DNA from: a virus
Virus record (IMG/VR): IMGVR_UViG_3300010397_000091
Coordinates: 1 to 22,330 of that record
Length of the DNA: 22,330 nucleotides
Strand: one strand, 5' to 3'
In this document: piece by piece, positions 4,470-22,330 of the stretch
Layout: each line of letters starts with the position of its first letter
Position numbering within the stretch: the first letter of the stretch is position 1
The notes under the pieces: generated by a model
What the model was told of the DNA's origin: nothing
What the model saw: only the letters and a program-made list of their open reading frames with translations
Database searches by the model: none
Translations under genes and position numbers: made by a program

Positions 4470-4902
4470 GCTAATCGCCGTCCTCTGCGCCCTCGCGCTC
4501 GTGACGCCCGCGCTTGCTGGCACGACTTACCAAGAGCTTCCCGACCGAGCAGTCGCGATCAATGCGACCTCGGGCGATGTCGCCGCAGCAACCGCGACAG
4601 CCACGCTCACCGCGCCCACTGCCGGCGCCGGGAAGTCAATTTACCTCTGCGGCTTCGACATGCGCGGCACAGGCGCCACATCGGCGACGACCGTTGCGCT
4701 GACTATCACGGGGCTAATCGGAGGCACGCAGACCTATCAGGTGCTCGTTATCGCCGGCGCAACCACTGCGACGCCGAGCCTCACCGTGACTTTCCCGGTC
4801 TGCCTCAAAGCAACGCCCGAGACAGCCGTTGTCGTTTCCATGCCGACATTCGGCACGGGCGCCCTGCACGCGATGATTAACGCGTGGGGATACGTCTACT
4901 AA
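4462..4902 (+). CDS. Exported (Sec signal peptide) phage protein
   Basis: The chosen ATG at 4462 gives 146 residues beginning MRKLIAVLCALALVTPALAG: a basic n-region, a hydrophobic h-region and an ALA cleavage site after about residue 19, a textbook Sec signal peptide. GGAG lies 11 bases upstream. An in-frame upstream start at 4411 would bury the signal and is less likely. The mature part is Thr/Ala-rich beta-type sequence with two cysteines, in YLCGFDM and PVCLKAT, which could form a disulfide after export, and it ends in INAWGYVY. A periplasm-directed protein among virion genes is notable; it might act at the cell envelope or be acquired by particles. Function is unknown. Confidence 0.8.
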   Translation: MRKLIAVLCALALVTPALAGTTYQELPDRAVAINATSGDVAAATATATLTAPTAGAGKSIYLCGFDMRGTGATSATTVALTITGLIGGTQTYQVLVIAGATTATPSLTVTFPVCLKATPETAVVVSMPTFGTGALHAMINAWGYVY

Positions 4903-5036
4903 TGGCGAAAGCCATCGCCGCGCCGGTCGCGCGCTTCCCCGTCAAAAAGCGCACGTCGATCGGGGGCAAGCATTTCCCCAAGAACAAGGCCGCGCGCCGT
5001 TCTTGGAAGGCATACCGCGGTCAAGGCCGCGTTTAA
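4902..5036 (+). CDS. Very basic small protein (44 aa)
   Basis: The ATG overlaps the preceding stop as TAATG. The 44 residues run from MAKAIAAPVARFPVKKRTS to KAYRGQGRV, with 14 Lys/Arg and only Ala, Gly, Val and Phe otherwise common, and no acidic residue. It is the last gene before the terminator-like hairpin at 5085. A highly basic peptide directly upstream of scaffold and coat could bind nucleic acid or the acidic scaffold, but this is speculation. Confidence 0.65.
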   Translation: MAKAIAAPVARFPVKKRTSIGGKHFPKNKAARRSWKAYRGQGRV

Positions 5037-5084
5037 GAGCTTCGGGCAGGCGTCCGCGCGACGTGGACAGCCGCCACGATGACC

Positions 5085-5107
5085 AAGCCGCCTCCGGGCG
5101 GCTTTTC
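5085..5107 (+). terminator. Rho-independent-type terminator before the scaffold gene
   Basis: AAGCCGCC and GGCGGCTT form an eight-pair stem around the tetraloop TCCG, followed by TTTTC. It lies between the basic 44-residue gene and the preferred scaffold start at 5124, and would end or attenuate the upstream transcript. Confidence 0.6.
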
Positions 5108-5123
5108 TACGAGTGCAACTCAA

Positions 5124-6005
5124 ATGCAGGACGACACCCTAGACGGGACCGAGGCCGCCCAAAGCGAGCAGCCGGGGAACGACGAACAGTCTGAGGCCAC
5201 AGAGGTCGAACAGACCGACGAGGCCGAAACAGAGACAGACGACTCCGAGAAATCGGAGGACGGCAGCGACGACGAAACCGAGGCTAAGGACGGCGACGGC
5301 GAGGACGACGAGGGCAAGGACGAAAAAGCCAAGCCCAAACGCGAACCTCGACACGCACGTTACCAGCGCCAGATTGATCGACTGAAAGCCCAACTCGCCG
5401 AGGCGAGCAGCCGCACAAGCGGCAGCCCCTCAGCCGCAGATGTGGCGAGCGAGGTCGAGAAGATCATCGGCAAGCCGCCGCAGGAAGCAGATTTCAAGGG
5501 CGATTATCTCGCCTTTGAGCGTGCGCAAACTGCCTACGAGATCGACAAGCGGATTGAAACCCGCCGCGTGCAAGGCGAAGCACAGCGCCATCAGGCCCGA
5601 GCGGCCGAACGGCGTGCCGAGCTCGCCGAGGCGCATCAGGAGCGCGTCGAGGAATTTCGCGAGCGTGCGAAAGACTTCGACGACGTGATGAAGGCGGCTA
5701 AATCCGCAGACCTTAAGGCATCGCCGGTAGTCGAAGACCTGATCCTCGACTCCGACAAGTCCGCACACGTTGTCTACTACCTCGCCAAAAATCCCGGCAG
5801 GCTCGATGAACTCAACCGAATGACCGAGCGCCAAGCCGCTCGCGAAATCGGTCGCATCGAGGCCCGGCTGTCTCTGCCGCAACCCAAAAAGCAAACCCAG
5901 GCGCCTCCCCCGGTCAAGCCGCCACGCGGCGGCGCCGCTGCGCCCTCTCCCGAAGCCGCGCTCAATGCATGGCTCAAGAAGACGTATCGAGGCGCCCAAA
6001 TTTAA
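5124..6005 (+). CDS. Capsid scaffolding protein
   Basis: Scaffolds direct assembly of the coat shell and then leave or are degraded. From the ATG at 5124 the product is 293 residues. Residues ~1-70 are extremely acidic (TDEAETETDDSEKSEDG). Then comes a basic patch, KPKREPRHARYQRQ, and long charged coiled coil to about residue 200. A conserved-looking block, SPVVEDLILDSDKSAHVVYY to NPGRLDELNRM, follows, then a Pro-rich linker and a short basic tail, LNAWLKKTYRGAQI. Acidic N-terminus, helices and basic helix-type C-terminus immediately before a P22-type coat gene are the hallmarks of this role. An alternative in-frame ATG at 5079 adds 15 residues but places the terminator-like hairpin inside the gene; neither start has a strong ribosome site. 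Confidence 0.85.
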   Translation: MQDDTLDGTEAAQSEQPGNDEQSEATEVEQTDEAETETDDSEKSEDGSDDETEAKDGDGEDDEGKDEKAKPKREPRHARYQRQIDRLKAQLAEASSRTSGSPSAADVASEVEKIIGKPPQEADFKGDYLAFERAQTAYEIDKRIETRRVQGEAQRHQARAAERRAELAEAHQERVEEFRERAKDFDDVMKAAKSADLKASPVVEDLILDSDKSAHVVYYLAKNPGRLDELNRMTERQAAREIGRIEARLSLPQPKKQTQAPPPVKPPRGGAAAPSPEAALNAWLKKTYRGAQI

Positions 6006-20798: not shown

Positions 20799-20832
20799 GC
20801 CCCAGGGCTCCGGCTCTGGGGCTTTTTGTTTT
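20799..20832 (+). terminator. Rho-independent terminator at the convergent end
   Basis: GCCCCAGGGC and GCTCTGGGGC form a ten-pair stem (one G-T wobble) around TCCG, followed by TTTTTGTTTT. It ends the plus-strand late/lysis transcript. Read on the minus strand, the hairpin is followed only by GTTATTAG, so it is a weaker stop for the opposing genes. Confidence 0.88.
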
Positions 20833-20853
20833 GCCGCGGGGCTACTCTGACAA
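20833..20853 (-). repeat. Junction repeat type A, copy 1
   Basis: On the minus strand TTGTCAGAGTAGCCCCGCGG spans the stop of the gene at 20842 and the following C run. It matches copies 2 and 3 except for a few bases, and here the start codon after the C run is absent (GCGG replaces ATGG). Confidence 0.5.
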
Positions 20854-21045
20854 TCTGCGGAGGGCATAAATGCCCTCAAGGATGTTGACTACATCATTGC
20901 GGCTGAGTGCCAGCGTGGGCTCGTGATCAGCGTCGCGCCATTTTTGTAATGCCGCGACAATCGGATCAAGTTTCTCGATCCGCTGAATGTCATACTCGCG
21001 TTTATAGACCGTTGCCGTCGCCGGGCCTTGCTGGGGTGTATTCAT
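20842..21045 (-). CDS. Small hypothetical protein, minus-strand cluster
   Basis: This 67-residue protein reads from MNTPQQGPATATVYKREYDI to NILEGIYALRRLSE. It is helical and charged, with no cysteines or membrane segment. It is the distal gene of the minus-strand cluster and has its own GGAG nine bases before the ATG, unlike several neighbours. The upstream gene stop lies only 3 bp before this ATG (TAG-CCA-ATG). Its 3' end faces the convergent terminator and carries a copy of the C-rich junction repeat just after the stop. No family was recognised. Confidence 0.65.
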   Translation of the reverse strand: MNTPQQGPATATVYKREYDIQRIEKLDPIVAALQKWRDADHEPTLALSRNDVVNILEGIYALRRLSE

Positions 21046-21048
21046 TGG

Positions 21049-21240
21049 CTATTTCTCCAACTTGATCTGATCCCATCCAGCGAACCAATCCTCACGCGAC
21101 TGTGGGAGGAACTCGGAGAACGGGTTGCTGTCACGGCTGCGCCCTTTCCGAGCCGCAGACCGGCCGCGCTCAAGCGGTGTTACGCGATCTTGCCAGCGCC
21201 TTGAGTATGCGTAGCTACAGAGTTCGTCATAGTTGGCCAT
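21049..21240 (-). CDS. Small basic hypothetical protein, minus-strand cluster
   Basis: This is a 63-residue protein with N-terminus MANYDELCSYAYSRRWQDRV and an Arg/Ser-rich centre (RGRSAARKGRSRDSN). A Trp/Phe-rich C-terminus contains SEFLPQSREDWFAGWDQIK. No domain was recognised. It starts immediately after the upstream TAG and a run of six C, with no purine-rich ribosome site visible, so translation may depend on coupling to the upstream gene. Confidence 0.6.
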   Translation of the reverse strand: MANYDELCSYAYSRRWQDRVTPLERGRSAARKGRSRDSNPFSEFLPQSREDWFAGWDQIKLEK

Positions 21241-21258
21241 GGGGGGCTACCGTGACAA
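21236..21258 (-). repeat. Junction repeat type A, copy 2
   Basis: On the minus strand the element reads TTGTCACGGTAG, then six C, then ATGGC: the end of one gene and the beginning of the next. It is identical to copy 3 apart from one C, the first base and one base before the TAG. Confidence 0.6.
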
Positions 21259-21459
21259 TTGGACAACGAGCCAGTCGCGAAGCTGGATTGCTTGCTCTGG
21301 TGTCATTGTCAGGGTGCATTCAAATGACTGATTATAGCTATCGACCGCCTTTTCCTCGCTGACGGAAACAAGCAAATGGCCGCGCTGGTCGAATGCGAAA
21401 GTTGCGCCCTCTTCAAAGGTGTTATTCGGCTCAAATCTTATCGTCTGATCAATCGGCAT
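21247..21459 (-). CDS. Small hypothetical protein, minus-strand cluster
   Basis: This 70-residue protein runs from MPIDQTIRFEPNNTF to QLRDWLVVQLSR. It is mixed alpha/beta: strands around ATFAFDQRGHLLVSVSE and SFECTLTMTPEQ, then a helix AIQLRDWLVVQ. The upstream gap is 18 nt and holds AGAGCACCCCCGT before the ATG, shared with the gene at 21910. The last three residues, LSR, are the same as in the gene at 21714, within a longer DNA repeat. Function unknown. Confidence 0.65.
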   Translation of the reverse strand: MPIDQTIRFEPNNTFEEGATFAFDQRGHLLVSVSEEKAVDSYNQSFECTLTMTPEQAIQLRDWLVVQLSR

Positions 21460-21472
21460 ACGGGGGTGCTCT
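21460..21472 (-). repeat. Junction repeat type C, copy 1
   Basis: AGAGCACCCCCGT on the minus strand lies immediately before the ATG of the gene at 21247-21459. An identical 13-mer is at 22088-22100. Confidence 0.5.
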
Positions 21473-21477
21473 GCTAG

Positions 21478-21708
21478 TCAGTTTGGTTTTCTGGCGGCGG
21501 CGGCCACTGCGGCGTCCATCGCGGCGGTCACATTGCGAATTACTGCCTCGCGCTCGTCCTCAGTGCAGGCGGACTGGGCAATGATCGGAAGGGTCAAAAG
21601 TGAATACAGCGCGCGTTCGGTAGTTGAGAGCGGATATGCAGGATCGCGCGAAATCTCGATTAGATGTGCCTTCAGATCATCCGATGTGACTTCGGGGAAT
21701 GATGCCAT
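21478..21708 (-). CDS. Small helical hypothetical protein, minus-strand cluster
   Basis: This is a 76-residue, largely helical protein: MASFPEVTSDDLKAHLIE, then TTERALYSLLTLPIIAQS, and an Ala-rich C-terminal helix, NVTAAMDAAVAAAARK. There is one cysteine and no motif. It begins five C after the upstream TAG in the same sequence context as the gene at 21049, and lacks an obvious ribosome site. No family was recognised. Confidence 0.65.
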   Translation of the reverse strand: MASFPEVTSDDLKAHLIEISRDPAYPLSTTERALYSLLTLPIIAQSACTEDEREAVIRNVTAAMDAAVAAAARKPN

Positions 21709-21725
21709 GGGGGCTATCGTGACAG
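21704..21725 (-). repeat. Junction repeat type A, copy 3
   Basis: On the minus strand the element reads CTGTCACGATAG, five C, ATGGC. Together with copy 2 it gives a ~22-nt repeat at two gene junctions about 467 bp apart. Confidence 0.6.
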
Positions 21726-21905
21726 GCTGTCACGCTCCTGTTCCAGTCGTTTCAATATCCTCGCTGCCATTTGCGTCGCCGTGACCACGACTCCGGTCCA
21801 TCCGTATAGATCGGATGGCTTGTGAACCACTATCCAGCCGACTGAGAGTGGACCAAAATAGTCTCTGGCGTCGTAGACCACGAACTCAGATGCGGGGTTG
21901 GGCAC
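21714..21905 (-). CDS. Small hypothetical protein, minus-strand cluster
   Basis: This 63-residue protein starts at a GTG four C after the upstream TAG. The N-terminal half is beta-like (SEFVVYDARDYFGPLSVGW, then IVVHKP), followed by VVVTATQMAARILKRLEQER. The residues around the stop encode LSR and lie in a junction repeat. A perfect 15-nt palindrome, GTGACAGGCTGTCAC, occurs in its last codons. Function unknown. Confidence 0.6.
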   Translation of the reverse strand: MPNPASEFVVYDARDYFGPLSVGWIVVHKPSDLYGWTGVVVTATQMAARILKRLEQERDSLSR

Positions 21906-21914
21906 GGGGCTAGT
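21903..21914 (-). repeat. Junction repeat type B, copy 1
   Basis: ACTAGCCCCGTG on the minus strand joins a TAG stop to a GTG start. The identical 12-mer is at 22235-22246. Confidence 0.5.
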
Positions 21915-22089
21915 TTTTCAGCAGTTCGGCGGCTTGCTTGGCATTCCCGTCACCGCAATTCGGGCAAGTCCATTGCCCGTCGCTGTCTGGATGCTCAGCA
22001 CCGTACCGGAACGCGCATCCACCGCATACGACGCAGTTCGTTTCCTCTTGGTATTCCCAGCCGTAGGGAAGATTGTCGGGTGCGGACAC
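21910..22089 (-). CDS. Small zinc-ribbon protein, minus-strand cluster
   Basis: From the GTG at 22089 this is 59 residues. Cysteines are at 19, 22 and 25 in CVVCGGC and at 42, 45 in CPNC, preceded by WT, forming two CxxC knuckles typical of a zinc ribbon. The frame is open further upstream to 22293, but that extension would overlap the better-supported 22100-22237 gene, so the shorter form is preferred. The start follows AAGAGCACCCCC, the same motif found before 21459. Zinc-ribbon phage proteins can bind nucleic acid or protein; role unknown. Confidence 0.65.
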   Translation of the reverse strand: MSAPDNLPYGWEYQEETNCVVCGGCAFRYGAEHPDSDGQWTCPNCGDGNAKQAAELLKN

Positions 22090-22100
22090 GGGGGTGCTCT
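22088..22100 (-). repeat. Junction repeat type C, copy 2
   Basis: The AGAGCACCCCCGT 13-mer leads directly into the GTG start of the zinc-ribbon gene ending at 21910. Confidence 0.5.
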
Positions 22101-22237
22101 TACAACCAAAACCAAAGCGGACTTCCGTAGTACAGCGCATTGCATGGATCACAGACCCAAGCCCAGCCGCGCGTCCAGTGACATCCATTCGTAGTTGCCC
22201 TCCAACCCGAACAGCGCAAGCAATATCCAATGACCAC
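22100..22237 (-). CDS. Tiny Trp-rich zinc-type protein (45 aa)
   Basis: This small frame begins at a GTG with AAGGA eight bases upstream and ends at TAA in 22100-22102. The 45 residues contain CLRC (Cys6, Cys9) and CDPC (Cys29, Cys32), again two CxxC pairs, plus six Trp (including WTRGWAWVCDPC and the end PLWFWL). The spacing of 19 residues between pairs fits a small zinc ribbon. It fills exactly the space between the partial gene at the right edge and the zinc gene at 21910-22089. Function unknown. Confidence 0.6.
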   Translation of the reverse strand: MVIGYCLRCSGWRATTNGCHWTRGWAWVCDPCNALYYGSPLWFWL

Positions 22238-22246
22238 GGGGCTAGT
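22235..22246 (-). repeat. Junction repeat type B, copy 2
   Basis: The same ACTAGCCCCGTG 12-mer joins the partial right-edge gene to the 45-residue gene. Confidence 0.5.
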
Positions 22247-22330
22247 CCTTCAGCTTTCGCGCATCTGCACGAGTGATGCGCGCACCGCCGCATATCGTAC
22301 AGCGGCCATCCGGCCGCAACAGGTCTCTCA
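22242..22330 (-). CDS. 3' end of a CxxC protein running off the right edge (partial)
   Basis: Only the C-terminal 29 codons are inside the window. They read RDLLRPDGRCTICGG and then ARITRADARKLKD before a TAG. One CxxC pair (CTIC) is visible; more may lie outside. The arrangement is like the neighbouring zinc-type genes, and its stop is followed directly by CCCC and the next GTG start. Confidence 0.6.
   Translation of the reverse strand, partial: RDLLRPDGRCTICGGARITRADARKLKD

Follow-up and report, generated by a model that had tools for sequence, protein, structure and literature searches.

The minus-strand small-gene operon of this phage sequence is punctuated by short C-rich repeats, and on balance we read these as a phage-specific start-associated sequence that serves as the standard connector between the accessory small genes of a polycistronic operon. 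From the arrangement of the junctions, we infer both a role in translation and a coupling mechanism. The analyzed stretch of DNA, hereafter the window, is a complete, linear IMG/VR virus record of 22,330 bases with a GC content of 61%, and probably represents a fragment of a phage genome. The phage is P22-like, with late genes of the P22 type on the plus strand (scaffold, major head protein, head closure, and tail genes). No near DNA match to the window was found among 50,697 isolated phage records, and the 1.4-kb block that holds the repeats had no distant DNA match among them either. Relatives of the coat protein were found in Hyphomicrobiales contigs, namely in Camelimonas and in a Hyphomicrobiales MAG, and since they sit in such contigs, the host is probably a member of this order. 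A further conserved late protein is tentatively named lysozyme here from its position and residues; the annotation and family searches assigned no family to it. The late operon and the small-gene operon converge, and a terminator-like hairpin with a T-run (20799–20822, plus strand) lies between them.

Eight small genes tile the minus strand from 20842 to 22330. Only the 3′ part of gene 1 (22242–22330) lies in the window, its translation containing a CxxC motif and continuing past the window end. Gene 2 (22100–22237, 45 aa) has pairs of Cys residues and no family, while gene 3 (21910–22089, 59 aa) is zinc-ribbon-like on weak Pfam matches only. No family was found for gene 4 (21714–21905, 63 aa), gene 5 (21478–21708, 76 aa), gene 6 (21247–21459, 70 aa), or gene 8 (20842–21045, 67 aa), with genes 5 and 6 also being without a match in isolated phages. 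Gene 7 (21049–21240, 63 aa) is RMF-like, scoring 29.9 bits against PF04957 (cutoff 27.9), and its PDB matches were chains of the ribosome modulation factor (RMF) alone, all of them weak. A search of the cluster proteins against isolated phages returned no match, and no RMF-like protein resembling gene 7 was found in viral contigs. Within the operon, the genes have no detectable similarity to one another while the junctions are conserved, which bears out the earlier observation that the encoded proteins are unrelated and the boundaries more alike than the genes.

The preliminary description had listed repeats of three types, A, B, and C, at these boundaries, and every listed copy was found in place on the minus strand. 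The division into types held only in part. After alignment of all copies, types A and B merged into a single longer element, YTG-N6-TAG-CCCC. Here, YTG encodes Leu in the frame of the upstream gene, which TAG terminates; the element spans the final three codons plus stop of that gene and reaches 9 nt further upstream than first described. It is seen at junction 1 (CTGAAGGAC-TAG-CCCC-GTG, 22235–22253), where an SD-like AAGGA lies within the upstream gene, at junction 3 (CTGAAAAAC-TAG-CCCC-GTG, 21903–21921), and, without a Shine-Dalgarno (SD) core, at junction 4 (CTGTCACGA-TAG-CCCCC-ATG, 21706–21725) and junction 6 (TTGTCACGG-TAG-CCCCCC-ATG, 21238–21258). The gap from stop to start is 4–6 nt at these four junctions. 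Junction 7 (TTGGAGAAA-TAG-CCA-ATG, 21043–21060, start at 21045, sequence TTGGAGAAATAGCCAATG) carries a GGAG core and is a weak member. A terminal copy (TTGTCAGAG-TAG-CCCC, 20838–20853) follows the last gene; the copy reported there as degenerate type A (20833–20853) is indeed present, but ends gene 8 and precedes no start. The upstream genes at the YTG-type copies end on LKD (gene 1), LKN (gene 3), LSR (gene 4), LSR (gene 6), LEK (gene 7), and LSE (gene 8), each directly before the stop. Type C, which has the form TAR-GAGCA-CCCCC or an AGAGCA variant thereof, is found at junction 2 (TAA-GAGCA-CCCCC-GTG, 22087–22102), and junction 5 (TGA-CTAGCA-GAGCA-CCCCC-GT-ATG, 21457–21480) is a hybrid of types B and C, of which no exact copy was found in viral contigs. 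A perfect palindrome with 8-bp arms, CGTGACAG-C-CTGTCACG, was also observed at 21718–21734, overlapping the end of gene 4 and junction 4. It is absent from the other TGTCACG junctions and was the sole palindrome seen by eye at the junctions.

The heptamer TAGCCCC starts at 22244, 21912, 21716, 21249, and 20844, and the only further copy on either strand of the window is found at 4716, antisense to a late ORF. As a chance control, the 1.5-kb block was shuffled 2000 times with dinucleotides preserved. TAG followed by at least four C was observed five times against a shuffle mean of 0.07 and a maximum of 2, and GAGCACCCCC twice against a mean of 0.003; none of the 2000 shuffles reached either count. 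Six of the seven cluster starts have a run of at least four C within 2 nt, compared to 0 of 23 late-gene starts (Fisher p 1e-5), and amber stops terminate six of the eight cluster genes versus 2 of 24 late genes (Fisher p 8e-4). Chance, or the base composition of a C-rich genome, might be invoked in view of the GC content and of C4 runs elsewhere in the sequence. This explanation is refuted by the shuffles, by the comparison with the late genes, where none of the repeats occur, and by the retrieval of junctions across two phages by a scoring matrix, as described below.

Viral contigs were scanned for the exact pattern GTCACGRTAGCCCCC, which yielded 66 stretches, mostly due to chance or internal to genes, and led to a second phage, IMGVR_UViG_3300025936_000061 (36,118 bases, hereafter G046). 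Its cluster occupies the same genome position as that of the window and converges on a lysozyme gene whose product shares 73% identity with the window lysozyme; all junction types are present at 932–2200 around unrelated genes. These are CTGTCACGG-TAG-CCCCC-ATG (LSR tail), TTGTCGGAG-TAG-CCCCGTTT-ATG (LSE tail), a non-coding CTGAAGGAT-TAG-CCCCC-ATG after an earlier TAA, the type C junction TAG-GAGCA-CCCCC-GTG, TTGAGGGAC-TAG-CCCCG-ATG (LRD tail), and a final copy, TAG-GAGCAG-CCCCC. None of the six proteins of this operon resembles a window cluster protein, and none is RMF-like. When a matrix trained on the window was applied to the cluster-holding half of G046, four junctions ranked first with scores of 16.1–20.4, whereas the best non-junction reached 11.1 in this half and 12.8 in the other. 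Conversely, the top five hits of a G046-trained matrix on the window were window junctions. When relatives were searched without prior bias for 7-mers present four times within 1.5 kb, only TAGCCCC, in the window and G046, had all four copies at stop/start junctions. Thus, rather than a common gene order with diverged junctions, the relative shows different genes with conserved junctions, and the local frequency of the motif far exceeds chance, with no enrichment in Hyphomicrobiales host genomes; neither outcome that had been named beforehand as refuting was found. On the G046 sequence, an orphan gene of 192 aa (128–706) is oriented divergently to the operon. The gap between them (707–785) is a candidate for the promoter region and contains a terminator-like hairpin on the minus strand at 727–748.

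A possible, if unlikely, explanation for this pattern is cassette exchange, whereby the junctions would be alike mainly through swaps of single genes at short shared ends, any effect on translation being secondary. Genes within and between the two operons lack detectable similarity while the 16–21 nt junctions share it, and CCTGTCACGRTAGCCCCCATG is identical at 20 of 21 positions between the phages. Junction 5 with its extra TAG looks like a hybrid or remnant, as does the c/d junction of G046, where an LKD* tail is left after an earlier TAA, and a copy persists at the operon end with no gene following. However, the analysis turned up no two relatives that differ by a single swapped gene, the closest G046 relative (99.7% over the shared DNA) does not cover the cluster, and an identity of 16–21 bp is short for ordinary recombination. 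Nor does exchange alone account for the start codon at the end of nearly every copy. The shared junctions may also allow genes to be exchanged, which is compatible with a role as connector.

In the proposed connector, Leu-x-x and the amber stop of the upstream gene are followed by a C-tract of 4–6 nt and the next ATG or GTG. The two x codons can supply a Shine-Dalgarno core (AAGGA, GGGA, or GGAG), with the stop and the C-tract acting as spacer, so that a ribosome terminating at UAG would be placed 4–6 nt from the next start and could reinitiate there by translational coupling. In type C, GGAG or AGAG is located just past the stop instead. Good pairing to the anti-Shine-Dalgarno sequence was found at four of five G046 junctions and two of seven window junctions, the rest being weak, and was mostly provided by the last codons of the upstream gene. 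A coupled stop-spacer-start connector is favored because of this pairing from upstream codons together with the termination–reinitiation geometry at junctions 1, 3, 4, and 6. The earlier statement that most starts lack a purine-rich site has to be narrowed accordingly, as SD cores within the upstream gene precede the starts at 22237 (AAGGA) and 21045 (GGAG); the remaining starts are weak. Likewise, the suggestion of a non-standard initiation signal is backed with regard to initiation, by position and by a precedent in mycobacteriophages (PMC3203893), but the signal is not clearly non-standard since several copies carry an SD core in the last codons of the upstream gene. Counting against the connector, the TGTCACG copies are among the best conserved and yet have no SD core, the terminal copy precedes no gene, and more distant relatives that share the coat or lysozyme genes are without the motif. 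Folding of the junctions revealed no consistent effect on accessibility, and the RNA structure around the starts was not distinctive. Readthrough of the amber codon into the next gene was rejected, as the frame differs among C4, C5, and C6 spacers.

The junctions without a core raise the question of whether the C-tract itself recruits ribosomes independently of SD pairing, through the G-rich regions of the 16S rRNA. Such sites have come out of in vitro selection and have also been described in some phages (PMC3310771), and the TGTCACG junctions do combine a C-tract with a missing core. We consider this very improbable, as half of the junctions carry SD cores, and the same study reports that poly-C by itself performs poorly and that C-rich sites work with low efficiency in E. 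coli (PMC3310771). Moreover, the complementarity of the junctions to 16S rRNA was 5–7 nt, no longer than for shuffled junctions, and C-tract pairing was not supported by this test, for which the E. coli 16S rRNA, not that of the host, served as proxy because no SSU rRNA was found in the two host genomes tried. Post-transcriptional control of the whole operon by a regulator acting at every start, whether an RNA-binding protein or a small RNA whose seed is GGGGCUA, is improbable as well. It would fit the terminal copy without a gene and the conservation of YTG, TAG, and C-tract beyond the SD core in unrelated contexts, an argument also made for the mycobacteriophage repeats (PMC3203893); however, no candidate regulator was identified, no Rfam RNA was present in the window or in the G046 sequence (L158), and no consistent RNA structure emerged.

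Gene 7 offers a further, highly speculative thought, to which we give very little credence. E. coli RMF is thought to occlude the anti-Shine-Dalgarno region of the ribosome. If the phage RMF-like protein did the same, it could dampen SD-dependent host translation, while the C-tract junctions, several of them without an SD core, would continue by termination–reinitiation.

Beyond these two phages, the lysozyme alignment was used as a profile to search 249 Hyphomicrobiales genomes, which pointed to a contig of 7,773 bases (L251, G250:C148) that carries a related gene. Four copies of YTGGAGGGATAACCCCATG, each preceding a gene, are found at 4475–5774, and the order of parts (YTG, purine core, TAR, CCCC, ATG) matches. 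At least three of the four copies follow a hairpin, and as the copies lie in intergenic gaps, their TAA is not an upstream stop. Scanning 397 genomes with two mismatches allowed, an exact copy or a cluster of YTGGAGGGATAACCCCATG was found only in the genome of this contig. Because the copies reach only moderate matrix scores (13.0–13.6, ranks 2–5 in the contig, below one non-site), homology to the motif of the window and G046 is suggestive. Should this be one and the same motif, then its action is at the level of nucleotides, and overlap accounts for the Leu-x-x-stop tails of the other copies. Among the other, more distant coat and lysozyme relatives, the motif is absent from most, and it is therefore not a general feature of the group. 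A candidate in one coat relative (L121, ACTAGCCCCGTG) was rejected as a junction; it lies in the gap after a repressor-like gene. The pattern GGAYTAGCCCC(N)RTG had 20 matches in the 397 Hyphomicrobiales genomes, fewer than the reversed control, and no clusters were found around any of them. The type C form TARGAGCACCCCCRTG is present in 22 viral contigs, and outside G046, 19 of 21 matches stand at the beginning of an ORF with 72 or more codons. Hence, TARGAGCACCCCCRTG genuinely serves as a start context in further phages, although some of these contigs are near-copies of each other, which lowers the number of independent cases. Separately, TAGGAGCACCCCCATG, whose stop codon overlaps the Shine-Dalgarno core and whose spacer is C-rich, opens long ORFs in many otherwise differing viral contigs (L165–L186, e.g., L186 5967–5982).

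Several known systems invite comparison. The PeSL of T4-type phages are mobile regulatory cassettes with promoters and stem-loops and are far longer. They likewise represent a repeated sequence beside unrelated small accessory genes, a proposed aid to gene shuffling, but no promoter or stem-loop is common to the window junctions. The C-rich sites selected in vitro (PMC3310771) also place a C-rich stretch directly upstream of the start, as in some phages, but are C-rich over 18 nt versus only 4–6 C here, where an SD core is often present and the 16S complementarity is not above that of shuffled junctions. Closer is the SAS-like motif GGGAAAGGACCCC of Cluster EF Microbacterium phages (PMC7302621), in which an AAGGAC purine core leads directly into CCCC before starts, similar to CTGAAGGAC-TAG-CCCC in the window. 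In contrast, it has no stop between core and C-tract, is linked to extended motifs, and belongs to unrelated phages.

The closest parallel is the start-associated sequence (SAS) of Cluster K mycobacteriophages, with the consensus GGGATAGGAGCCC, which was described in 2011, its function then being unknown (PMC3203893). Both SAS and the Cluster EF motif place a purine core and CCC(C) before the starts of unrelated genes and are conserved beyond rRNA pairing (PMC3203893, PMC7302621). As with SAS, the window repeat is short, asymmetric, in a single orientation, and immediately upstream of the starts of unrelated non-structural genes, being absent from the structural ones (0 of 23 late starts). It can likewise show an SD core followed by CCC, is conserved beyond rRNA pairing, and is rare rather than enriched in hosts; the upstream stop codon is sometimes located within SAS, too. 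The differences are just as clear. The window repeat usually includes the last codons and stop of the upstream gene, with junctions at coding-sequence ends and gaps of 4–6 nt versus more than 50 bp; it is confined to one operon, and the phage is proteobacterial. An AGGAG-type core is present in some copies only, being absent from the TGTCACG and GAAAAAC copies, and YTG-N6-TAG-CCCC resembles the SAS consensus only in a purine core followed by a C-tract. About half of the SAS copies have extended (ESAS) inverted repeats upstream (PMC3203893), none of which were seen here. Since some copies have no core, the consensus differs, and no extended repeats were seen, we regard the repeat as a new SAS-like variant, not as a SAS member. 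A shared connector around different genes suggests a standard way to make several proteins from one message, and the repeat offers a sequence handle for finding accessory small-gene operons of almost entirely unknown genes. While the described SAS cases that we found are from actinobacteriophages, the present one comes from phages of probable alphaproteobacterial hosts. New in comparison are the fusion to the upstream stop codon and the natural variants with and without a Shine-Dalgarno core, which make the questions of translation, regulation, and recombination testable with short reporters.
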